Source of the DNA: Myxococcales bacterium
GTDB lineage: Bacteria; Myxococcota_A; UBA9042; JAGQJP01
Direction: 5' to 3'
DNA: 33,273 nt
NCBI GenBank assembly: GCA_020430585.1
Contig: JAGQJP010000652.1
Span: forward strand, 1 to 33,273
Under the pieces are notes generated by a model, which saw only the letters and a list, made by a program, of their open reading frames with translations, searched no databases and was not told the DNA's origin. The position numbers and the translations under genes were made by a program. This document shows positions 7,401-25,067 of the stretch, piece by piece; the stretch's first letter is position 1, and the number at the start of each line of letters is the position of its first letter.

Positions 7401-7429
7401 TTGACTTCGAGCGGGGCTCTGGCTACCAT
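7401..7429 (+). promoter_or_regulatory. Candidate promoter for the DUF4266-ApbE operon
   Basis: TTGACT, 17 bases, then TACCAT on the plus strand, with a start expected near 7436 and a leader of about 50 bases before the TTG start codon at 7487. It is divergent from, and about 60 bases away from, the promoter of the large minus-strand gene. Confidence 0.5.
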
Positions 7430-7486: not shown

Positions 7487-7726
7487 TTGCGAAGAACGAC
7501 CTCGACTCGGAGATGGTGCGCTGTCCTGCTGTTGGCGATCGGCACGTGTTGGCTCTCGAGCTGTCAGACCACGCATTTCTACGAGCGGCGGCGTCTCGCG
7601 GACGGATGCATGCAGTTCGATGCCAACGGCCGCCTGGCGTACATCCGAAGCAAAATCGAGGCGGCCCGCGAAGGCAGCCTCGGCGGCTTCGGCGCTGGAA
7701 CCGCTGGCGGTTGCGGCTGTCAATAG
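7487..7726 (+). CDS. DUF4266 small lipoprotein
   Basis: This 79-residue protein starts at a TTG codon; its frame is closed by a TGA at 7475-7477 and no ATG or GTG is suitably placed. GAGGTGGAG immediately upstream is a good ribosome site. The N-terminus is a lipoprotein signal (basic RRTTSTRRW, hydrophobic CAVLLLAIGTCW, lipobox LSSC with Cys26). The mature part matches the DUF4266 family: FYERRRLADGCMQFD, then REGSLGGFGAG and the Gly/Cys tail GGCGCQ. The conserved C-x-C tail suggests a metal or redox role, but none is established to my knowledge. It is the first gene of an operon; its stop TAG abuts the ATG of the DUF3570 gene. Confidence 0.85.
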   Translation: MRRTTSTRRWCAVLLLAIGTCWLSSCQTTHFYERRRLADGCMQFDANGRLAYIRSKIEAAREGSLGGFGAGTAGGCGCQ

Positions 7727-8884
7727 ATGCGCGGTCTCTGCAATAGAGCCGGGACCCTCACGGTCGCCGCGGTGCTGCTCGCGATCACCGCGAACCTGGC
7801 GCCGCGCACCGCTCGCGCCGCTGGCGGTGAGAATCGCGTCTCCCTCGACCTCTTCGTCTTCGATCAGAACGACCAATCGACGGACCATCTTCGTCGCCAG
7901 GGCTTCATCTATGGCGCGGGGGGCGTCGATTTCAGCGTTCGGGCGAGCGAGTTGGTCGTGGTGCGCGGTGCGACGACCATCGCGTACATCAAGGGAAGCG
8001 GCAAACCCGAGCTGCCTTCCTCGATTACCAACGCTTCGGTCACCTCGGCCTCTCCCGACACCGTGACCTGGGACATCGTCATCGGTCTGGACATCCGCAA
8101 GCCCGGCAGCCGCTGGCAGTTCAGCCCGGGCGTCTACTATCACCACCAATTCGGTTGGGCTGTCCCGGGTCTGGACATGTCGCTACGCGGCGAGTTCTTC
8201 GGCGGCGACGGCGTGTTGACGCTGAACTATGCGATCCGCGGCGCAATCCGTGGTGGCGACTTCTGGGATGGCAACTGGCGTGGCTTTCACTATCTGCTGA
8301 GCAACAATCTCCAGATCGGTTGGACCCAGACGCTCTCGCCGAGTTGGATCACCGCTGTCAGCGTGCAGTACGCACGACAGGACGGTCAGACGATCGGGTA
8401 CTTCAACTACGTCGTGCTCGTCGACGCGAACGGAACGCCGATCAAGCTCACCGACGAGCGGCTTCCGACCCAGCGCAATCGCGTCCAGGTCAATTTGCGG
8501 GTGCGTTACTCGCCCAAGCTCGGATTGGCCTTTGGTCTGGACCTCAGCGGGTACATCGACGACTGGAGCATCCGTCACGCGGCGATTCAAGGCAGCCTCG
8601 AGGTTCCTCTCGCCCAGTGGCTACGCTTTCGCTTCTGGTATCGCTTCGCCGCGCAGCATCGGACGCGGTTTTTTCGGCTCTCTCCCCTCGCGGAGACCCG
8701 CTATCAAACGCAAGACAGCGACCTCGACAGCTTCACGATGCACAGCGCGGGGATGCTGTTGCACTTCTCGTTGACGAAGACCCGTCGGCCGCACTGGGCG
8801 ATTCGCCTCGGGTCCCTCGGCTTCTACCGCAGCGATGGAATCGCGGCGCTCGGGGGCAGCATCGGATTGGTGGCATCATGGTGA
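7727..8884 (+). CDS. DUF3570 outer-membrane beta-barrel protein
   Basis: This 385-residue protein begins with a signal peptide (hydrophobic LTVAAVLLAITANLAP, cleavage near ARAA). The rest is made of alternating beta-strands with aromatic girdle residues (WQFSPGVYYHHQFGW, WLRFRFWYRF) and ends GLVASW, consistent with an outer-membrane barrel. The DERLPTQRNR segment followed by a strand corresponds to the L-P-x-x-R-x-R signature of DUF3570. The ATG directly follows the stop of the DUF4266 gene, and the 3' end overlaps the thioredoxin gene by 7 bases, so translation is likely coupled. From genome annotation, DUF3570 genes commonly sit with DUF4266, thioredoxin and apbE genes; the biochemical role is not established. 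It could be a pore or the surface scaffold of a redox complex. Confidence 0.8.
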   Translation: MRGLCNRAGTLTVAAVLLAITANLAPRTARAAGGENRVSLDLFVFDQNDQSTDHLRRQGFIYGAGGVDFSVRASELVVVRGATTIAYIKGSGKPELPSSITNASVTSASPDTVTWDIVIGLDIRKPGSRWQFSPGVYYHHQFGWAVPGLDMSLRGEFFGGDGVLTLNYAIRGAIRGGDFWDGNWRGFHYLLSNNLQIGWTQTLSPSWITAVSVQYARQDGQTIGYFNYVVLVDANGTPIKLTDERLPTQRNRVQVNLRVRYSPKLGLAFGLDLSGYIDDWSIRHAAIQGSLEVPLAQWLRFRFWYRFAAQHRTRFFRLSPLAETRYQTQDSDLDSFTMHSAGMLLHFSLTKTRRPHWAIRLGSLGFYRSDGIAALGGSIGLVASW

Positions 8885-9417
8885 TCACTCGACGACAACG
8901 AACACCTTCATCTGTGGCCCTGCGACAGGCGGTCGTGCGGCTGTGCGCGGCGTCGATGGGACTGCTGCTACTCGTTTGTCCGGCGAGACCGCTCGTCGCG
9001 GCGTCGCCGACCCGATCCCTCGGGTGGGCGAGCGCGCCTCTGACGGTCCGCACGCTCTCGGGTTCGCAGGCTCCCTGGCGGGCGCAGATCGCGGGGACCA
9101 AGCGCACACTGATCGTCTTCATGACCATCTGGTGCAAGGCCTGCGCGCGGAAGCAGGCGGACGTCGTCCGTTGGGCGCGGCGCTCGCAGAAGACGACCCG
9201 CACGCTCTTCGTCTTCAGTGGCAGTCCGCTGGCCGAGGTGGCTCGCCTCGTGCGCGAGCGCGGAATTCCCCTCGACGTGATTTCGGTGCTCGTCGACCGC
9301 GACGGAAGCGTCGCCCAGCGCTATCGGATCACCGAGACGCCGACCTACCTGCTCTTCACACCGAGCCGCCCGATCCCCGCTTCCTACGCCAAGATCGCGA
9401 GTATTCCCCGTGGCTAG
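8878..9417 (+). CDS. Secreted thioredoxin-like protein (WCKAC)
   Basis: This 179-residue protein has a long basic leader and a hydrophobic signal segment (AASMGLLLLVCPARPLVAA), so it acts outside the cytoplasm, probably in the periplasm. The thioredoxin-fold core shows IVFMTIWCKACARKQADV with a C-x-x-C active site, then the cis-proline loop TETPTYLLF. The length fits a single TlpA/ResA-like domain. The ATG at 8878 overlaps the DUF3570 stop, and the 3' end overlaps apbE by 8 bases. In this setting it may reduce or load the cysteines of the DUF4266 tail, or supply electrons to a flavin site made by ApbE; both are inference. Confidence 0.82.
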   Translation: MVITRRQRTPSSVALRQAVVRLCAASMGLLLLVCPARPLVAASPTRSLGWASAPLTVRTLSGSQAPWRAQIAGTKRTLIVFMTIWCKACARKQADVVRWARRSQKTTRTLFVFSGSPLAEVARLVRERGIPLDVISVLVDRDGSVAQRYRITETPTYLLFTPSRPIPASYAKIASIPRG

Positions 9418-10429
9418 GCGGCGTCGTTGGGCGACGCTCGTCGGCATCTGCGCTCTGGTGTCGTTGGAGGCGCACGGGGGGCCGCGTCGCGACGGCCCCG
9501 TCGCCCCGCTGGTCGAAGTACGCGACAGCGGGCGCGAGCTGGGGACGCCGTACGACGTCGTGATCGTCACCAGCACCAAGGACGAAGCGCGCGCCCGCGC
9601 CGCGCTGCGCGAGTTGCGCGTTTTCGTGCGCGGCCTCGAGCGGCGCTTCTCGGAGTGGATGCCCGACAGCGAGATCTCCAGGATCAACCGCGACGCGGGG
9701 CGCGGCTGGGTCGCCATCGCCCCGGACATGGCCAAGCTGCTGCGCGGGGCTCTGCACGTCAGCCGCGTGACCGATGGCGCCTTCGACGTCAGCTGGGCCC
9801 CGCTCGGCGCGCTCTACGACCGCGCTCGGCGGAATGGGCGGTTGCCCGGGCCCGCCGCGATTCGACGCTACCTTCAACGAGTCGGCTGGCGCGGGGTTCG
9901 CCTGGAGAAGCAGAGGATCCGCTTCGCGCGACGCGGGATGAAGCTCGGCATCGCAGGGGTCGCCAAGGGCTGGATCATCGACGCCCTCTTCGGCAAGCTC
10001 GCCGGCCAGCGTTTTCGCAACGTGATCATCAACATCGGCGGTGACTTGCGCACATCGGGCCGCGACCGATGGGGTCGCGAGCCGCGCTTCGTGATCGCCG
10101 ACCCCTACCGCAAGGGGCGCTTCGTCGCCAGCCTGACGATCTCGAACGTGGCGATCGCCACCTCGGGAAACTATCTTCGCTACCGCATGATCGGGGGACG
10201 TCGCGTCGGCCACATCGTCGACCCGCGGAGCGGACGCACTCCGCTCTTCGACGGGTCGGTCACCGTCCTGACACGGGACGCGGCGATGGCCGACGCATTG
10301 GCCACCGCTCTGTACGTGATGGGACCTGCGCGCGGGCTCGCCTTCGCCAAGCGAATCCGTGGGCTCGATGTGATCTTCGTGACGCGCCAGGGCGTGCAAA
10401 CGTCGCTGAAACCGGGGCGGCTGCGCTGA
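9410..10429 (+). CDS. apbE: FAD:protein FMN transferase (ApbE)
   Basis: ApbE enzymes split FAD and attach FMN to a Ser/Thr of a target protein in the periplasm, with magnesium. The 339-residue chain starts at GTG, overlapping the thioredoxin gene by 8 bases, and has a signal sequence (WATLVGICALVSLEAHG). Family motifs in order: SEISRIN (87-93), FDVSWAPLGALY (125-136), LGIAGVAKGWIID (179-191), INIGGDL (207-213), ATSGNY (250-255), HIVDPRSG (268-275) and ADALATAL (294-301) with metal-ligand candidates Asp295 and Thr299. All key positions appear intact. No standard flavinylation target (D-x-x-S/T-G-A-T type) is obvious in the neighbouring proteins, so the acceptor is open; the DUF4266 tail is one candidate. 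Confidence 0.9.
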   Translation: MARRRRWATLVGICALVSLEAHGGPRRDGPVAPLVEVRDSGRELGTPYDVVIVTSTKDEARARAALRELRVFVRGLERRFSEWMPDSEISRINRDAGRGWVAIAPDMAKLLRGALHVSRVTDGAFDVSWAPLGALYDRARRNGRLPGPAAIRRYLQRVGWRGVRLEKQRIRFARRGMKLGIAGVAKGWIIDALFGKLAGQRFRNVIINIGGDLRTSGRDRWGREPRFVIADPYRKGRFVASLTISNVAIATSGNYLRYRMIGGRRVGHIVDPRSGRTPLFDGSVTVLTRDAAMADALATALYVMGPARGLAFAKRIRGLDVIFVTRQGVQTSLKPGRLR

Positions 10430-10529: not shown

Positions 10530-12728
10530 TCAGGGCTTGCGTCGCAGCGGGATCAGGGCGAACAGAGCGACAAACAGCAGGGCCAAGGGCGCGGTGGGGC
10601 TGCCGCTCGGCGCGCTCTGACAGCCTTTCGAGCCGCCGCCGGAGGGCGTCGTGTCGGTCCCACCGTTGGTTGCGTCGGGGTCGCCGTTGGTCGCGTCGTT
10701 GGTCGTCTGTCCGCTCGGGATCGGCGCTGGCTGGCCGTTCGAGAGGAAGCAGCCGCCGAGGTTGTTGTAGACGGGGGTACAGGATTCACCTGCCTGGCAG
10801 TTCTGCTTGTCGGCGAGGCAGGGGACGAGACAGACCTTCGTGCCCGTCCCCGGATCTTCGCAGAAGAGGCTGCTGCACTCGTCGTCGCCGAGGCAGAACG
10901 CGCCGACGTCCTTGCTTCCGGTCAGCTCGCAGCTACCGTTGGGCGAGCCCTTCTCCGCCCGCTTGCAGCGACGTGGCAGCTCGCAGGCGTACGGGTTGGT
11001 GATGTCGCAGAAGTCGCTGCAGACCCCGCCCGCGCAGACGCCGCTCTTGCACTCGCCCGACGCGGTGCAGCTACCACCGTTGTCGACACAGGCGATCCGC
11101 TGTCCCGTGACGCAGATGCTGCCGACTTGAGAGCCGAGGCACTCCATTCCACAGGGACAATCCGCCGTCGTCGTGCAGTTCGCGCTGCAGAAAGCGTTCG
11201 ACTCGGCTTCGAGGCGCACGCAGAGGTTCGAGACGCAGTCGTCTGGGGCGGCACAGGGCCCTCCCGTCCCGTTTTTCTGCGGTGGATTGGTGCTGCTCGT
11301 CGGTAGGCAGGCGCCGCCGCTCGAATCGAGGAAGCCTGCGCACTCTTCGTTCGAGCCGCAAGCGGGGTTCTTCGGATCGCAGCCCTGGCGGCAGAAGAAC
11401 TGGCTCGAATTCGCGTCACCCGCGCAGACGCCGCTCTCGCACTCGTCCCCGCTTTGGCAGGCGTCGCCGTTCTTCTTCTTCGTCGTCGGCTGATTCGGTG
11501 GATCGCCAGGGATGCAGGCGCCACCCGAGCCCGACTGCAGCGTGGCGCAGTATGTGCCGTTGGGGCAGTTCGGCGCGCCCGGGTTGCATTTTTGGCGGCA
11601 CTGGCTGTCGCTCGAGGTCGTGCCGACGCAGAGACCGCTCTGGCACTCACCCGAGTAGCTACAGGACTCGCCGTTCGCTTTCGGCTTTGGCGGCTCGGGC
11701 GCCTGTCCAGGGATGCAGACGCCGCCGCTCGCGTTCGAGAACGCGGCGCAGTAGTAGCCGCTCGGGCAGTCGTCGTTGGTCGGCTCACAATTGCGTGTGC
11801 AGATGTTGGTGGTCTGGAGCTGTTGGCAGAAGAGCTCAGGCTTGCAGTCGTACTGGCCCGAGACGCAGCTCCCACCCAGGTCTTTGTTGGCCGAGGGGAT
11901 CACGTAGGTGATCTCGCTGCAGACGCTGTTCTTGCAGAGGTAGCGCGCGAGGTACTTCTCTTCGTTCCCGTCGTCGGTGATCACGTAGGGACACTGCGAG
12001 TCGCTGCTGCAGCTGTACGTGCTGCCTTGGGGGTAGAGAAAACAGGCGCCGCGCTGGTCACTGTCTTTCAGCACTCGGGTGATCTTCCACTGGGTGGGCG
12101 ACGCCGAGGGCGCCATCACGGGCGGCGTCTGCGGGTCGTAGCCGCCGAGCTCGTGCTGCAGACCGAAGTAGTGACCGATCTCGTGGGTCGCGATCGAGAG
12201 CACGTCATTTTTCTGGTTGTTCGTCCCGGGGTTGGTCGTCCAGCTGGTCTGGCCGTTGAAGCCGATGTCCGCCTCGTCGATCTTGCCGTCTGGGACACCG
12301 AAGATCGGCACCGTGATCCCGAGGACATAGGGGCCGTAGATCCAGTTCGAGACCCAGCCGATCTCGTTCTTGTCGTTCGGCTGTTTCCGATAGTAGGCGC
12401 CGTTCTGCTGCGTGACGGCGATCATCGAGTCGTTGGCGTCGACGCTCTTGCCCTCGCTGAAGAAGGTCAACGACGAACAGCTCACCGCCTCCCAGTTTTT
12501 GAAGGCGGTCAGGATCGCCTGCAGGTCCGATCCGTCGGTGATCCCCGAGAAGCCCTTCTGGTCGAGGTTATAGGGAACCTTGTTCGTCGACCAACGGACG
12601 GGGTTGGTGCTGTTTGGCGCCCAGTTGATCACGTTGCCTCGGCTCGGGATCGGCGCGCTGGCCAACACGAAGGCGAGGGCGAAGGCGATCGGTGCGGCGA
12701 CAGACGAGACGCGGGTGAAGCGGGTCAT
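10530..12728 (-). CDS. Matrixin-like metalloprotease with Cys-rich repeats and MYXO-CTERM tail
   Basis: This 732-residue secreted protein starts at 12728, preceded by AAGGAG. Signal peptide: VAAPIAFALAFVLASAPIP. The catalytic domain (about 33-235) has the metzincin zinc site HEIGHYFGLQH (182-192; ligands His182, His186, His192, base Glu183) and a Met-turn at PPVMAP (Met205), followed by the LYP element that closes matrixin-type domains. Residues about 238-660 hold about five Cys-rich modules, each near 65-85 residues, of the form C-x5-C-x-S-G-x-C with a later C-R-x-x-C, separated by Pro/Lys/Asn linkers. The tail is Thr/Asn/Asp/Gly-rich, then SKGCQ, a hydrophobic stretch (LALLFVALFALIPL) and RRKP, matching MYXO-CTERM sorting tails. 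It follows the 193-residue secreted protein by 16 bases. Likely a surface-displayed or released protease; substrate unknown. Confidence 0.88.
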   Translation of the reverse strand: MTRFTRVSSVAAPIAFALAFVLASAPIPSRGNVINWAPNSTNPVRWSTNKVPYNLDQKGFSGITDGSDLQAILTAFKNWEAVSCSSLTFFSEGKSVDANDSMIAVTQQNGAYYRKQPNDKNEIGWVSNWIYGPYVLGITVPIFGVPDGKIDEADIGFNGQTSWTTNPGTNNQKNDVLSIATHEIGHYFGLQHELGGYDPQTPPVMAPSASPTQWKITRVLKDSDQRGACFLYPQGSTYSCSSDSQCPYVITDDGNEEKYLARYLCKNSVCSEITYVIPSANKDLGGSCVSGQYDCKPELFCQQLQTTNICTRNCEPTNDDCPSGYYCAAFSNASGGVCIPGQAPEPPKPKANGESCSYSGECQSGLCVGTTSSDSQCRQKCNPGAPNCPNGTYCATLQSGSGGACIPGDPPNQPTTKKKNGDACQSGDECESGVCAGDANSSQFFCRQGCDPKNPACGSNEECAGFLDSSGGACLPTSSTNPPQKNGTGGPCAAPDDCVSNLCVRLEAESNAFCSANCTTTADCPCGMECLGSQVGSICVTGQRIACVDNGGSCTASGECKSGVCAGGVCSDFCDITNPYACELPRRCKRAEKGSPNGSCELTGSKDVGAFCLGDDECSSLFCEDPGTGTKVCLVPCLADKQNCQAGESCTPVYNNLGGCFLSNGQPAPIPSGQTTNDATNGDPDATNGGTDTTPSGGGSKGCQSAPSGSPTAPLALLFVALFALIPLRRKP

Positions 12729-12744
12729 GCTCGGCTCCTTGGCG

Positions 12745-13326
12745 TTACTGCCGCTCGAGGGCGAGGCGGCGGACCGTCTCGACGAATTGAGCATACGGCG
12801 TCGGCTGCGCGAGGAGCGGACGCGGTTCGCGGATGCGGTGCGTCGGATCGACGACGGAGAGCCCGTGGACCCGTTGACGCACCATCAGCGCCCCATTCGC
12901 ACCGCTGCGCGTCACGTCGAAGCGACCGAAGGCGAGGGCGTTGACGACGAAGGGCCCGCCTTTGGTATTGCGCCAGAGAAACAGGATCACGCGCTCTCCC
13001 ACGCGAAAGCTGGGGTTTCCCGCGATTCGGCGCGCGTAGCGGCCGAGCGTGCCACCGACCTGGGTCAGGCGGAACGACGGTTTGCTCAGCACGCCTTTGA
13101 GCACGCGCTGCACGCGAAAGGTCGTGTCGGTGTAGATGTCCTTCGCGTTTTGGCGGGCGTAGACGTTCACGCGCTGGACCGTCGCGTCGATGATCAGCGG
13201 CGAGGTCTGCGCCAGCCCGCGCAGGGTCACGCCGCGAACGACCGTCGCGTGGCCGATCCCGGGTGCGATGCAAAGGAGCAACGCGAAGGCGAGTAACGTG
13301 GTGTTTCGTCGATCGATCATGGTCAT
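12745..13326 (-). CDS. Small secreted protein paired with the metalloprotease
   Basis: This 193-residue protein has a signal peptide (TTLLAFALLLCIAPGIGHA). I place the start at 13326, where GAGG precedes the ATG; a longer frame upstream would cross the divergent promoter region. The mature domain has a strand pattern with recognisable landmarks: SPLIIDATVQRVNVY, IYTDTTFRVQRVLKG, LTQVGGTLG, FRVGERVILFLW and VNALAFGRFDV. I have seen this pattern in secreted proteins of Myxococcota near matrixin-like proteases, but it has no assigned function that I know. It is the first gene of a two-gene unit, 16 bases from the protease. A chaperone, inhibitor or cell-surface partner role is possible inference. 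Confidence 0.7.
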   Translation of the reverse strand: MTMIDRRNTTLLAFALLLCIAPGIGHATVVRGVTLRGLAQTSPLIIDATVQRVNVYARQNAKDIYTDTTFRVQRVLKGVLSKPSFRLTQVGGTLGRYARRIAGNPSFRVGERVILFLWRNTKGGPFVVNALAFGRFDVTRSGANGALMVRQRVHGLSVVDPTHRIREPRPLLAQPTPYAQFVETVRRLALERQ

Positions 13327-18217: not shown

Positions 18218-20911
18218 ATGAAGTTTGCTTTGAGATTCGCCGCGATCGGGATCGCTCTCGCTCTTTGCTCGCCCTCATGCGTGGTTCAGCGCGAGAATCC
18301 GAAGATCGAAGGCCAGACCATCCGCGTCACCTTCTTGCACACCACCGACATCCACTCCCGCTTGATCCCCTACGACATGATTCCGCTCGCCACCGACCAG
18401 CGACTCGGGCTGCTGATCGAGAACAAGCCCTACGGCGGGATCGCGAAGCTGGCGTATCTGATGAAGCGCGAGCGCTCTCGCTCGAGCCGTGTGGTGCACA
18501 TCGACAGCGGCGACTGTTTTCAGGGCGCGCCGATCTTCAACGCCTTCCTCGGCGAGATCGAAATCCGCTCGATGAGCCAGCTCGGTCCCGATGCGGTGGT
18601 GATCGGAAACCACGAGTTCGACGAGGGGCTCTCGAATCTGGTCAAGCAGTATCAGAAGTGGGGGAACTACCCGCTCTTGGCGGCGAACTACGACTACTAC
18701 GACGACAACCCGCTGAAGGTCGCCTCCAAGCCCTTCACGATCATCAACAAAGACGGCTTCAAGATCGGCGTGATCGGAATCGCCAACTTCTCGTCGATCT
18801 CGTCGATCACCGACATCGGCAACTCGCTCAAGATCTGGCCCCTCGAGATCAAAGAGACGGTGCAGGATTACATCGATATCCTGCGGCCCCAGGTCGACCT
18901 GATCATCGCCACGTCCCACGCGGGGCTCGGCGAAGACGAAGAGACGATTCAACAGACCCGCGGGCTCGACGCGGTGCTCGGCGGGCATCTGCACATCGTC
19001 CTGATGCCCCCCAAGGTGATCAAGGACCTCGACGGCCGGGACGTGATCTTGTCGCACTCTGGGGCGTTCGCCAAATATCTCGGGCGCCTCGACGTGGTGG
19101 TTCGCGATGGCGAGATCATCCAGCACAAGTACCAGCTCTTCCCGATCGACAAGAGCGTCCCCGAAGACCCGCAAATGATGGAGCTGATCGAGCCCTATCG
19201 GCTCGTCTTGAACCAGAAGATCGACCTGCGCAGCGTCTTCGGCTACAGCTCGAAGCGGATTCCGCGCTTCGGCTTCAACGGCGGCGACTCGGACCTCGGG
19301 AACTTCGTCGCCGAGGCGATCCGCCAGCTGGCGCGGGCGGACTTCGCGATCACGAACAGCCTCGGGATTCGCACCGACTTCAACCAGGGGCCGCTGACCC
19401 TCGATCAGCTGTTCAACGTCTTCCCCTTCAACAACACGGTGACGACGCTCTACATCTCGGGCTCCCAGATCAAGGAGCTCTTCGACTTCGTCACCCGGCG
19501 CAGCGCGGGCCGTGGCTGCGTGACGCAGGTCCAGGTCTCGGGGATTCGCTTCACGATGAATTGCGACGCCGATCCACCGGTCTCGCAGGACATCGTGTTG
19601 ACGAGCTGCACCGAGCCGGCCTTCGACGATCCGAACAACTGCAAAGAGACGCCGCTGGATCCCTACGCGATCTACGAGCTGGCGACCAACGACTACATCG
19701 CTGGCGGCGGTAGCGGGTTCACGATTCTGCGCTCGAACAACACCCAGGTCGACACGGGGATCTCGTTGCGCGACGCGGTGTTGGAGAAGATCCTACGCTC
19801 TCAGAAGTGCGTCGACGAGTGCAAGACCAAGGACGGAAACATCGTGATCGGTGGCTGCCTGACCTACGAAGGCTGCGTCGACACGGTGAGCACCTTCCGC
19901 GACCAATTCTGCAAGAACGTCGATCAGACCTCTCCGGGCCAGACCTTCAAGAACAACATCTGCCCCGTCGACGGCCTCGATTGCACGAGGAACGACGACT
20001 GCGTCGACGGCGTCAAGCGCTGCGCGGCGGGGAACTGTACACGGTGCAAGGGCGCCGCCGATTGCACGGTCGACGGCGAAGAGTGCCTCGACGGCTTCTG
20101 CCTGGTTCCCGACTCGGTCTGTCTCTTCGGGCGTTGCCGCAATCGCTGCAAGCAGGAGGCGGACTGCCCGGGTTCGAACAAGGTCACCCCGTCGCAGTCG
20201 CTCTGCGTCGACGAGGGGCGCTGCCTACCGAAGTTCGGACAACACTGCATCGATGACGCCGGCTGCCACGATCCCTGGCGGATGTGCTTCGGCAAAGACG
20301 GTCGCTTCTGCCTCTTCGACAGCGACTGCGCTGACGGCACGAGCTGTCGACGCAACCTCTGCGTGCCGACGCTGCCGGCGACCTGCACGACGAGCGCCGA
20401 TTGCGGTGGTGGTACCTGCACGCGCGGGTTCTGCAACGCCTTCACCGCTTGCGGTTCGGATGCGGACTGCCAGGCCGATGGCGCGGGATCGGTCTGTATC
20501 TCGGGTCTCTGCTCGAAGCCCTGTGGGCTGTGCAGCGCGGACGCCGATTGCCCCGCGGGCCATCGCTGCCTGGAGAACCGCTGCATCGTGCCGTTGGCGA
20601 CCTGCGTTGCCCAGCGCTGCCGTCAGCTCTGCGACAACGAGGACGACTGCATCGGCAACACGAGCTGCGTGTTCCCGACCTGTCAGGGAGACAGCTGTCC
20701 GAAATCGACCAAGGTCTGCGAGCCCCAGAGCTGCAGCGACACCGTCGGTCTCGAAGAGGCGTGCCGCCTGAACAACCTGAATCTGGCGCAAGAGCAGTGC
20801 CTGATCCTCGCCTGTCCGCGCTCTGGCGTCGACGGTCGGATCAAGCGCATCTTGCCGAAGAATACGAAAGACCGTCCTTCGGACCCGCAAATCGACGATC
20901 CGGAGGGCTGA
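18218..20911 (+). CDS. 5'-nucleotidase-family lipoprotein with Cys-rich tail
   Basis: This 897-residue protein is probably anchored by lipid at Cys21 (signal FALRFAAIGIALALCSPSC). Residues about 33-300 form a two-metal phosphoesterase domain: TTDIHS (Asp44, His46), DSGDCF (Asp99), IGNHEFDEG (Asn131, His132), TSHAGL (His234) and GGHLH (His257, His259). Residues about 335-525 are the UshA-type C-terminal substrate domain (ITNSLGIRTDFNQGPLT, FPFNNTV, NDYIAGGGSGF). From about 531 to 860 follow Cys-rich modules (repeated C-x5-D-C and C-x-x-G-x-C spacings) like those in the metalloprotease. The family removes 5' phosphates from extracellular nucleotides. I chose the start at 18218 because it opens the signal peptide and fits the promoter. 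The stop overlaps the next gene's ATG (TGATG). Confidence 0.88.
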   Translation: MKFALRFAAIGIALALCSPSCVVQRENPKIEGQTIRVTFLHTTDIHSRLIPYDMIPLATDQRLGLLIENKPYGGIAKLAYLMKRERSRSSRVVHIDSGDCFQGAPIFNAFLGEIEIRSMSQLGPDAVVIGNHEFDEGLSNLVKQYQKWGNYPLLAANYDYYDDNPLKVASKPFTIINKDGFKIGVIGIANFSSISSITDIGNSLKIWPLEIKETVQDYIDILRPQVDLIIATSHAGLGEDEETIQQTRGLDAVLGGHLHIVLMPPKVIKDLDGRDVILSHSGAFAKYLGRLDVVVRDGEIIQHKYQLFPIDKSVPEDPQMMELIEPYRLVLNQKIDLRSVFGYSSKRIPRFGFNGGDSDLGNFVAEAIRQLARADFAITNSLGIRTDFNQGPLTLDQLFNVFPFNNTVTTLYISGSQIKELFDFVTRRSAGRGCVTQVQVSGIRFTMNCDADPPVSQDIVLTSCTEPAFDDPNNCKETPLDPYAIYELATNDYIAGGGSGFTILRSNNTQVDTGISLRDAVLEKILRSQKCVDECKTKDGNIVIGGCLTYEGCVDTVSTFRDQFCKNVDQTSPGQTFKNNICPVDGLDCTRNDDCVDGVKRCAAGNCTRCKGAADCTVDGEECLDGFCLVPDSVCLFGRCRNRCKQEADCPGSNKVTPSQSLCVDEGRCLPKFGQHCIDDAGCHDPWRMCFGKDGRFCLFDSDCADGTSCRRNLCVPTLPATCTTSADCGGGTCTRGFCNAFTACGSDADCQADGAGSVCISGLCSKPCGLCSADADCPAGHRCLENRCIVPLATCVAQRCRQLCDNEDDCIGNTSCVFPTCQGDSCPKSTKVCEPQSCSDTVGLEEACRLNNLNLAQEQCLILACPRSGVDGRIKRILPKNTKDRPSDPQIDDPEG

Positions 20912-22848
20912 TGCGGATGCGAACGATGCGAGAGAGACGTTTGAGCGGTAGCGCTCGCTGGGGTACGTGGAGCGTTGCGCTCTGCCTGCTGTTGGGCTTT
21001 ACCGCGGGCTGTAAAGAGACCCTCAAGCGCGACGTGACGCTGCACACCTTCAACGTCACCCTGACCGAGACCGATCCGCCGCAGGTCCTGGGGACGATCA
21101 CCGACCCGCTGCCGTTTTCGAACGGGCGCGAGTGCACCGACGATCCCTCGATCTGCGCCGCCCCCGAGGTCTGCTCCCCCTTTGGGATCTGCGCGTTGCG
21201 CAAGGTCGTCGACATTCAGGCGGTCGACTCCAACGGCAACCTGATGACCTCGTACAATGGCGTCGCCTCGATCGACATCACGCCAGGCGAGCTGGCGGGC
21301 GGCAAGCAGACCGTGCAGTTGGTCAACGGTGAGGCGAAGAACGTCGAGATCTGGTACATCCTGGCCTACGAGAAGACGGTGATCTGGGTCGAAGACGTCG
21401 GCTACAAGCCCTCGAGCACGAAGTACTCGCAGTGCAACGACGGCCTCGACAACGACGGGAACGGCTTGATCGACCTCAACGATCCCGGGTGCAGCGGGAT
21501 CGATGATGACCTCGAGGTGACGGCGACCTACGCCACGGGCGCCTCCGAGGTGTTGTGGCACCGCAACCCGTCGATCCGCAACCTGAACATCTCGAAGTAC
21601 AGCTCGAAATCGCCCCTGCAGGGAAAGAACGTCTTCGTCGTCAAGGGCAAGATGGTCGTGACCAACATCGTCAACGGTGGCTTCTACGTCACCGACGTCA
21701 ACGATCAGCACGAAAACGACACCAATGACGGGTACTTCAACAGTATTTTCCTCTTCACGTTCTCGAACCCCGACGACGTCTTCATTGGCGACGTGCTCTG
21801 CAGCTTCTCGGGCGCGGTCTTCGAGTTCACGGGGACGACGCAGATCCAGTTTCCCTCCTACGAGATCTATTTCAAGACGCGACAGAACTGCGAGGTCCCG
21901 GACCCCGACGTGAAGCCGCCGGCGCCGATCGTGATCGACAAGACGGTGCTCAACGACGAGCTGTTCCTCGAGCGCTACGAGTCGAACGTCGTCGAGTTCA
22001 AGAATGTACAGGTCTCGACGCGCTACATTCTCTGCGACCGCAACCAGAACGGAACGATCGATCCCGGCGAAGAGGACAACTGCCGCAACGATTGTCAGAG
22101 CGATCCGCTCTGCACCGAGCTCTCGAGCTATCTCGAGTTCGCCCAGTGGGAGGGCTTCGTCGACGAGACGCGCAAGCTCTCGTTCAGCTGGGCGATCGCC
22201 AACAACTTCAAGCCCCTCGGGATCACGCTGCGGGGCGAAGAGGACAAGAACGGAATCTGCACCAAGCAGTTGACGGGTCAGGAGTTTTTGGTTTACACCT
22301 GCCCGCCTCGGACGATCCCCGTGATCGTCGGCAACATGCGCCAGCTCTTTCTCTGCTCGACCGAGACGACGCCGGGCAAGTGCCCCGTGGGGAGCTGGGT
22401 GATCGATCCGCGGCGCGACACCGACGTGCGCCTCGATCCCGACCTCGATATGGATCAAGACGGCTTCTCGATCAATCAGGGCGACTGCAACGACAACAAC
22501 GTCAACGTCAACCCTGGCAGGCCCGAGATCCCGAACAACGGCATCGACGACAACTGCGACGGCCAAGATCTCGACCCCGACAAGGACGCCGACGGCGACG
22601 GCTTCACGATCGCTCAGGGCGATTGCGACGATACGAATCCGAACATTCACCCCAACGCGATCGAGATCCCGGGCAACGGGATCGACGAGAACTGCGACGG
22701 GCAAGACCTCGATCCAACGATCGACAATGACGGCGACGGGTACACGATCCAGCAGGGCGACTGCGACGACTCGGATCCCGACGTTCATCCAGACGCGACC
22801 GAGATTCCCTACGATGGGATCGACAACAACTGCGACGGGAAGTTTTAG
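20911..22848 (+). CDS. OB-fold lipoprotein with MopE-type repeats
   Basis: This 645-residue lipoprotein (lipobox FTAGC, Cys34) is translated from an ATG that overlaps the nucleotidase stop by one base; GGAGG lies just upstream. Residues about 95-165 look like a beta-sandwich. Around 171-200 is a Myxococcota-type CNDGLDNDGNGLID segment. Residues about 237-325 (GKNVFVVKGKMVVTNIVNGG, FYVTDVN, FLFTF, VFIGDVLCSFSGAVFEFTG) resemble the OB-fold found in YhcR/ExeM extracellular nucleases. The C-terminus is three 43-46-residue repeats (511-645) with D-x-D-x-D-G and GDCDD, then NGIDxNCDG, as in copper-associated MopE. The OB-fold next to a 5'-nucleotidase gene is telling, since YhcR joins both in one chain. 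No nuclease active site is evident here. Likely a surface nucleic-acid or ligand-binding partner; inference. Confidence 0.75.
   Translation: MRMRTMRERRLSGSARWGTWSVALCLLLGFTAGCKETLKRDVTLHTFNVTLTETDPPQVLGTITDPLPFSNGRECTDDPSICAAPEVCSPFGICALRKVVDIQAVDSNGNLMTSYNGVASIDITPGELAGGKQTVQLVNGEAKNVEIWYILAYEKTVIWVEDVGYKPSSTKYSQCNDGLDNDGNGLIDLNDPGCSGIDDDLEVTATYATGASEVLWHRNPSIRNLNISKYSSKSPLQGKNVFVVKGKMVVTNIVNGGFYVTDVNDQHENDTNDGYFNSIFLFTFSNPDDVFIGDVLCSFSGAVFEFTGTTQIQFPSYEIYFKTRQNCEVPDPDVKPPAPIVIDKTVLNDELFLERYESNVVEFKNVQVSTRYILCDRNQNGTIDPGEEDNCRNDCQSDPLCTELSSYLEFAQWEGFVDETRKLSFSWAIANNFKPLGITLRGEEDKNGICTKQLTGQEFLVYTCPPRTIPVIVGNMRQLFLCSTETTPGKCPVGSWVIDPRRDTDVRLDPDLDMDQDGFSINQGDCNDNNVNVNPGRPEIPNNGIDDNCDGQDLDPDKDADGDGFTIAQGDCDDTNPNIHPNAIEIPGNGIDENCDGQDLDPTIDNDGDGYTIQQGDCDDSDPDVHPDATEIPYDGIDNNCDGKF
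22441..22845 (+). repeat. In-frame 138-base tandem repeat (MopE-like units)
   Basis: Units at 22441-22578, 22579-22716 and 22717-22845 encode 46, 46 and 43 residues that share DGDGF/Y, GDCDD, an I/V-H-P stretch, NGIDxNCDG and QDLDP. The DNA is similar as well, so copy number may vary between strains. Confidence 0.8.
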
Positions 22849-24452: not shown

Positions 24453-24481
24453 TTGTCCCCCGCCCGCATCTCTGGTATGAT
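24453..24481 (+). promoter_or_regulatory. Extended -10 promoter before the membrane thioredoxin gene
   Basis: TTGTCC, 17 bases, then TATGAT, with TG in the extended -10 position. The expected start near 24488-24492 falls at or almost at the chosen ATG (24492), so the transcript may have little or no leader. No Shine-Dalgarno sequence is visible. Confidence 0.5.
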
Positions 24482-24491
24482 GCCACCCGTT

Positions 24492-25067
24492 ATGGCAACG
24501 CCGAAAATCACACGGATCGTCTTTGTCGTGCTCGCCTTCGTGGCGCTCTCTGGATTCGTCGCCAGCGAAATCTCGGGAGCTCGTAAGAACGAGATCTGGC
24601 GCAGTCTTTTGGAGCAGGAGTTTCCCCTCGGCGTGATCCCCTTCGACAACGAGGTTCACGACTTCGAGCTCCCCGACCAGCTCGGGCGGCCGATCCGGCT
24701 CTCGAGGTATCGCAAGGGCACGGTGATCTTTCTGCACTTTTGGGGCTCCGACTGCCAGCCCTGCGTCACCGAGTTTCCCGAGCTGACGCGGCTCGCCAAG
24801 CGTTTGCAGCACGAGCGCGTCGCCTTCGTCACCGTGAGCCGCGACAAGACCCGCGCCGAGATCGATCGCTTCATTCGCTTCATCGGTGGGACGTCGGTGT
24901 TGTTGCTGGACGACCCCGAACAGAAGGTGATGAAACGCTACGGCGTCACCGCGGTACCCGAGACGTTCATCATCAAGAACGGCAAAATCCTCGCGCGCTT
25001 TATCGGCAAGCAAGAGTGGACCAGCAAACGGATGCTCTACTTCATGCGGCTGGTGATGGAGCTCTGA
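24492..25067 (+). CDS. Membrane-anchored TlpA-like thioredoxin
   Basis: This 191-residue protein has one N-terminal membrane segment (ITRIVFVVLAFVALSGFVA) and an extracytoplasmic thioredoxin domain of the AhpC/TlpA type: DFELPDQLGRPIRLSRYRKG, then LHFWGSDCQPCVTEFPEL with the C-x-x-C pair CQPC, a DDPEQKVMKRYGVTAVPETF stretch with the cis-proline, and IIKNGKILARFIG. These proteins reduce disulfides or assist cytochrome c and cofactor assembly outside the cytoplasm. The Ser-Asp before the first Cys differs from the usual W-C. In-frame ATGs at 24477 and 24480 sit inside the predicted -10 box, so I prefer 24492. The next gene begins one base after the stop, so the pair is an operon. Confidence 0.82.
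   Translation: MATPKITRIVFVVLAFVALSGFVASEISGARKNEIWRSLLEQEFPLGVIPFDNEVHDFELPDQLGRPIRLSRYRKGTVIFLHFWGSDCQPCVTEFPELTRLAKRLQHERVAFVTVSRDKTRAEIDRFIRFIGGTSVLLLDDPEQKVMKRYGVTAVPETFIIKNGKILARFIGKQEWTSKRMLYFMRLVMEL

Follow-up and report, generated by a model that had tools for sequence, protein, structure and literature searches.

The window, the whole stretch of 33,273 nucleotides that was analysed, belongs to a draft genome of Myxococcota type that is 95.7% complete, and a MYXO-CTERM match lies within it. Between positions 7487 and 10429 it carries four plus-strand genes that form one operon, in the order DUF4266, DUF3570, thioredoxin-like protein and ApbE. The first two genes abut, TAG being followed directly by ATG at 7726/7727, whilst the DUF3570 and thioredoxin genes share 7 bases (8878-8884) and the thioredoxin and ApbE genes share 8 bases (9410-9417). 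The abutting start and both overlaps described in the initial annotation thus agree with the coordinates, and its four family assignments are reproduced by Pfam profiles, with weak matches for the thioredoxin. A consensus scan gave a possible sigma-70-like promoter at 7401-7429 on the same strand, which is weak evidence (1 found against 0.2 expected). Upstream lies a CpXC/HEAT protein on the opposite strand and downstream a convergent matrixin-like metalloprotease (10530-12794, minus strand), whose repeats are rich in cysteine and whose C-terminus is of the MYXO-CTERM type; beyond the four genes, no further gene resembling part of the system was found in the neighbourhood. We considered that the operon might be a pseudogene or decaying, and this is unlikely because internal stops are absent, the ApbE residues are intact and the sister lineage (G008) retains both the site and a close ApbE. 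Elsewhere in the window, 20401-22848 encodes a protein in which copper-binding motifs of the MopE type occur three times and, near it, 24453-25064 encodes a second thioredoxin-fold protein of the AhpC/TSA type; neither shows a link to the operon.

The first gene (7487-7726, plus strand) has a TTG start and encodes 79 amino acids matching DUF4266 (PF14086, E 3.1e-10; 41.3 bits against a curated cut-off of 27). It had been described as a lipoprotein ending in GGCGCQ, and the sequence bears this out: the lipobox is LSSC with Cys26, and a Gly-rich tail ends in C76-G-C78-Q, so that the C-terminal CxC takes the form CGC. The lipobox Cys and the C-G-C are invariant in 38/38 relatives found with the DUF4266 profile. 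This statement on the tail draws only on those 38 loci; a further 80 (L075-L154) were found with a pattern that itself requires CGC and parts of the tail, so that conservation of the tail among them cannot count as independent evidence. Given its invariance in relatives, we propose that the C-G-C (7712-7720, plus strand) may act as a thiol relay on a swinging arm. Meheust et al. 2021 had already suggested that the DUF4266 CxC 'may undergo redox cycling' (PMC8238504).

Two other roles for this tail were weighed. The initial annotation had put forward the tail Thr as an FMN acceptor and had suggested looking for conserved Ser or Thr in alignments of both families. There is indeed a Thr at position 72 of this one DUF4266; however, it is private to it, relatives having Gly, Ala, Ser or a gap there, and no Ser or Thr of the tail is conserved across the alignment of the 38 profile-found relatives. 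The residue also lacks the D-x-x-[S/T]-G-A-[S/T] context, and DUF3570 is the proven substrate of the family (PMC8238504), which leaves Thr72 as an exceedingly improbable acceptor. The second role is that of a metal-binding lipoprotein, for example for copper, whose CGC captures the metal, with the thioredoxin keeping it reduced, DUF3570 serving as the pore and electron transfer being secondary. A CxC could plausibly bind a soft metal, C-G-C does not vary, and VIT1 iron transporters occur in 25 of the published clusters (PMC8238504). Nevertheless, no metal transporter or metalloregulator gene adjoins this operon, the DUF4266 tail offers two cysteines only, and the company of a thioredoxin and of flavin partners suggests a redox role, so we think a metal-binding function rather unlikely.

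The prior literature that we found on DUF4266 and DUF3570 is Meheust et al. 2021 (eLife, PMC8238504), in which the set of ApbE, DUF3570, thioredoxin and DUF4266 was described and clusters with DsbD, thioredoxin and DUF4266 were termed 'DsbD systems'. In that work, two [S/T]GA[S/T] sites of the Chlorobium luteolum DUF3570 received flavin from its ApbE, and labelling was abolished only when both were mutated (PMC8238504). The claim that no function is established for these families holds for the physiological role of the set but is out of date in another respect, DUF3570 having been known as an ApbE substrate since 2021 (PMC8238504). Our operon is a diverged variant of this already described, little-studied system. 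It shares the same four families per cluster, a CxC-tailed DUF4266 and an extracytosolic ApbE and thioredoxin; it differs in the cluster lacking DsbD, in the order DUF4266-DUF3570-thioredoxin-ApbE and in the acceptor protein, which has no [S/T]GA[S/T], has lost site 1 and retains site 2 as TSAS without the Asp.

Because Meheust et al. 2021 showed that ApbE flavinylates DUF3570, the acceptor in the operon is most likely this protein rather than the DUF4266 tail. The gene (7727-8884, plus strand) encodes 385 amino acids with a signal peptide and an outer-membrane beta-barrel, and matches PF12094 (E 2.9e-12) at 46.6 bits against a curated cut-off of 25, the match being confined to the profile's C-terminal half. 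The remark that the operon shows no usual flavinylation motif is literally right, since neither its DUF3570 nor its DUF4266 contains a strict [S/T]GA[S/T]. Instead of the two [S/T]GA[S/T] sites of the substrates of Meheust 2021, the mature DUF3570 has only two [S/T]-x-A-[S/T] words, TNAS at residues 101-104 and TSAS at 106-109, and both fall inside the 22-residue loop that houses the known sites in relatives. The probability of two or more such words in the loop was 0.00015 by whole-protein shuffle against 0.01 when the loop's own letters were shuffled, and for this reason the clustering is only suggestive of a non-random arrangement.

When 110 DUF3570 proteins are aligned, both sites follow D-x-x-[S/T]-x-A-[S/T]; Ala, Ser or Cys is frequent in place of the Gly, and at least one [S/T]-x-A-[S/T] lies in the loop of 108/110. 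Where site 1 lacks the Gly, the other positions are kept (D in 47/48, S/T in 47/48, A in 46/48 and the acceptor S/T in 47/48), which argues that such relaxed sites still work. Relaxed sites are common in the family and equally conserved in their other positions. In the window protein, site 1 has been lost, and site 2 reads A-S-V-T-S-A-S without the Asp. Its closest relative, the G008 copy (39% identical), has TQAS at the site 2 position and the G017 copy has SGAS. From this alignment, TSAS (8042-8053, plus strand) is a candidate relaxed second flavinylation site, and Ser109 in VTSAS, with its codon at 8051-8053, would most likely be the single residue to carry FMN. According to a review, Asp to Ala had a minor effect and Gly to Ala left about 50% of flavinylation, and its summary makes no mention of Gly to Ser (PMC12052999). 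Flavinylation at a relaxed site is made less likely by the finding that loci without the strict motif less often had ApbE nearby (13/29, against 33/43 with it; p = 0.012, the loci not being independent). The sister genome G008 also encodes a second DUF3570 besides its diverged copy (L201, G008:C426, 2-1072), with TCAS and SAAT sites.

AlphaFold2 models place these sites on a barrel. For a canonical Chlorobi relative with two canonical sites (L111), a 16-strand barrel was predicted with a pLDDT of 90.5, and the window DUF3570 gave a similar barrel at a mean pLDDT of 85.4. The models show closing antiparallel strands with long loops on one side, as expected of an outer-membrane beta-barrel. Moreover, the Foldseek matches of DUF3570 are porins and channels, OmpG being the best PDB match of the window protein (E 1.5e-7). 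The sites of L111 (60-63 and 79-82) and the TSAS of the window protein (mature residues 74-77) lie within the long strand 3-4 loop or where it begins. This loop is probably extracellular in the models, because the termini would be periplasmic in the usual topology and the strand count then puts it outside, together with the other long loops. An extracellular loop outside the pore would be beyond the reach of a periplasmic thiol arm, which counts against a relay from DUF4266. The loop around TSAS is, however, modelled with low confidence (pLDDT 30-41), and being poorly predicted it may fold into the pore.

The third gene (8878-9417, plus strand) encodes a secreted thioredoxin-like protein of 179 amino acids with a CKAC motif (codons at 9133-9144). 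Its matches to the AhpC-TSA and Thioredoxin_2 profiles (PF00578 and PF13098) are weak and below the curated cut-offs. The best PDB match is an MsrA/MsrB thioredoxin domain (E 6e-5), and there is weak similarity to StoA. With a CxxC, this similarity of fold and a signal peptide, the last read from the sequence only, it has the features of an extracytosolic thioredoxin-like protein. DsbD is absent from the operon cluster, which counts against the relay proposed below; the one copy in the genome, which itself has a thioredoxin-like CxxC segment, lies on a separate contig (C536). Such an arrangement has precedent, as 316 published clusters are likewise without DsbD (PMC8238504).

The last gene (9410-10429, plus strand) encodes ApbE, an FAD:protein FMN transferase of 339 amino acids with a signal peptide (PF02424, E 3.5e-63). 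Alignment with 7esa (E 1.4e-31) shows its catalytic Ser252, His268 and Asp295 to be intact, corresponding to Ser257, His273 and Asp301 of Listeria FmnB. The genome encodes further potential flavoproteins. RNF genes lie on contig C325 (L036), with a relaxed DAVTAAT motif in RnfD and EAITGAT in RnfG, and a second ApbE is found on contig C382 (L035, G000:C382, 4766-8303) beside a porin-like protein, an FMN-bind-like protein (IAGATLSA) and a small membrane protein. Therefore, the operon ApbE is not the only one in the genome. The initial annotation had raised a true ApbE target elsewhere in the genome as an argument against flavin on the operon's proteins; such targets do exist in RNF and the FMN-bind-like protein, but they do not make the operon ApbE superfluous. 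It could be that this ApbE serves RnfD and RnfG, with their TAAT and TGAT, or the FMN-bind-like protein, and that the diverged DUF3570, with site 1 lost and site 2 non-canonical, is an unflavinylated plain barrel. Against this, the ApbE gene overlaps the thioredoxin gene within the same operon, the C382 cluster has an ApbE of its own, and the sister lineage retains an [S/T]-x-A-S site together with an ApbE that is 52% identical to ours, compared with about 31-34% for its others. We consider a plain barrel unlikely, and flavinylation of DUF3570 is the reading carried forward here.

The co-occurrence of these families had been called recurrent, and genome comparisons confirm it. Of 90 Myxococcota genomes, 30 encode DUF4266, and precisely these 30 and no others encode DUF3570, which marks the two as obligate partners. 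ApbE occurs in 29/30 of these genomes against 48/60 of the others (p = 0.053, on a high background), and in a wider scan in 49 of 50 genomes with DUF4266. Moreover, adjacency of thioredoxin, DUF4266 and DUF3570, often with ApbE, is conserved across Gammaproteobacteria, Chlorobi, Verrucomicrobia, Campylobacterota and Myxococcota.

Haem proteins are frequent neighbours in these relatives. At 24 loci, a diheme beta-propeller protein of approximately 900 amino acids (two CxxCH) is encoded on the same strand as the thioredoxin, DUF4266 and DUF3570 (L041:4666-7539, L044:2978-5530, L075:2504-5248, L130:4439-7210 and 20 further). Its similarity to hydrazine synthase subunits is weak (for L075, 5c2v_A at E 1e-6), and it is often found at loci that lack ApbE and have a relaxed motif in DUF3570. 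Multihaem cytochromes with 4-9 CxxCH and weak ExtM/ExtKL- or MtrC-like matches lie beside DUF4266/DUF3570 at nine Myxococcota loci (L047:3805-6108, L048, L053, L054, L059, L064, L072, L045 and L074). These neighbourhoods fit a module that in general conducts electrons for oxidoreductases outside the cytosol and comes in flavin and haem variants. We also looked for a diheme beta-propeller partner for the present operon; there is none in its neighbourhood, and a search of its own genome gave one weak partial match. An association with haem proteins would also be expected if the module were an assembly aid, the thioredoxin and the thiol tail of DUF4266 keeping cysteines of periplasmic or outer-membrane proteins, such as c-type cytochromes, reduced during maturation. 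Many relatives adjoin c-type haem proteins and the thioredoxin has its weak likeness to StoA and MsrAB domains, but an assembly aid leaves the flavinylated barrel and the strict DUF4266-DUF3570 pairing unexplained, and no cytochrome gene adjoins this operon; we hold this to be improbable.

We favour, at about even confidence, a diverged member of the ApbE/DUF3570/thioredoxin/DUF4266 set in which electrons would pass from DsbD through thioredoxin and the CGC to FMN on the barrel, and from there to an acceptor located on the outer membrane or beyond it. ApbE would attach FMN to DUF3570 in the periplasm, before its insertion into the outer membrane. The single DsbD of the genome presumably reduces the thioredoxin, which in turn would reduce the C-terminal C-G-C of DUF4266. 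The Gly-rich tail could then serve as a flexible arm from which the CGC reduces FMN in the barrel loop, and the flavin would carry electrons outward. Flavinylation of this DUF3570, the relay, its direction and the final acceptor are inferred. A broader proposal, which we advance tentatively and with more doubt than conviction, is that DUF3570 is a flavin-based outer-membrane conduit in general: covalent FMN in an extracellular or lumenal loop would be reduced from the periplasm by a lipoprotein arm that ends in a C-G-C dithiol, relaxed [S/T]-x-A-[S/T] sites would serve a large subfamily to which this operon belongs, and many members would be paired with haem oxidoreductases.

The chemistry envisaged has parallels in other systems. 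RnfD, RnfG, NqrB and NqrC likewise carry Ser/Thr-linked FMN added by ApbE, and the RnfD encoded in this genome has, in TAAT, a relaxed motif similar to those of DUF3570; in contrast, RNF and NQR are inner-membrane complexes, whereas DUF3570 forms a barrel in the outer membrane and is unrelated to them in sequence. Redox traffic at the outer membrane is known mainly from cytochrome conduits. In porin-cytochrome conduits of the MtrAB type, an outer-membrane barrel also holds redox cofactors, the haems being those of a cytochrome that runs through the inside of a larger barrel. The comparison is one of working principle only, as the flavin would sit in a loop of a 16-strand barrel and no homology was found. 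If flavins in an outer barrel loop are indeed fed by a thiol-tipped lipoprotein, this would be a different solution, spread over many phyla.

New here are the relaxed single site, the strict DUF4266-DUF3570 pairing, the location of the flavin sites on the barrel and the haem-protein neighbourhoods. The operon offers a natural test of drift in the ApbE motif, with Gly changed to Ser, the Asp lost and one site in place of two. Moreover, since DUF4266 and DUF3570 are obligate partners, how they work together could be tested with just two small proteins. Lastly, Gammaproteobacterial clusters have, upstream of the thioredoxin, a conserved gene for an SH3-plus-outer-membrane-barrel protein (for example L102:3251-4036, L122:5316-6032 and L082:3522-4181) and a second small barrel gene, at 16 loci each.
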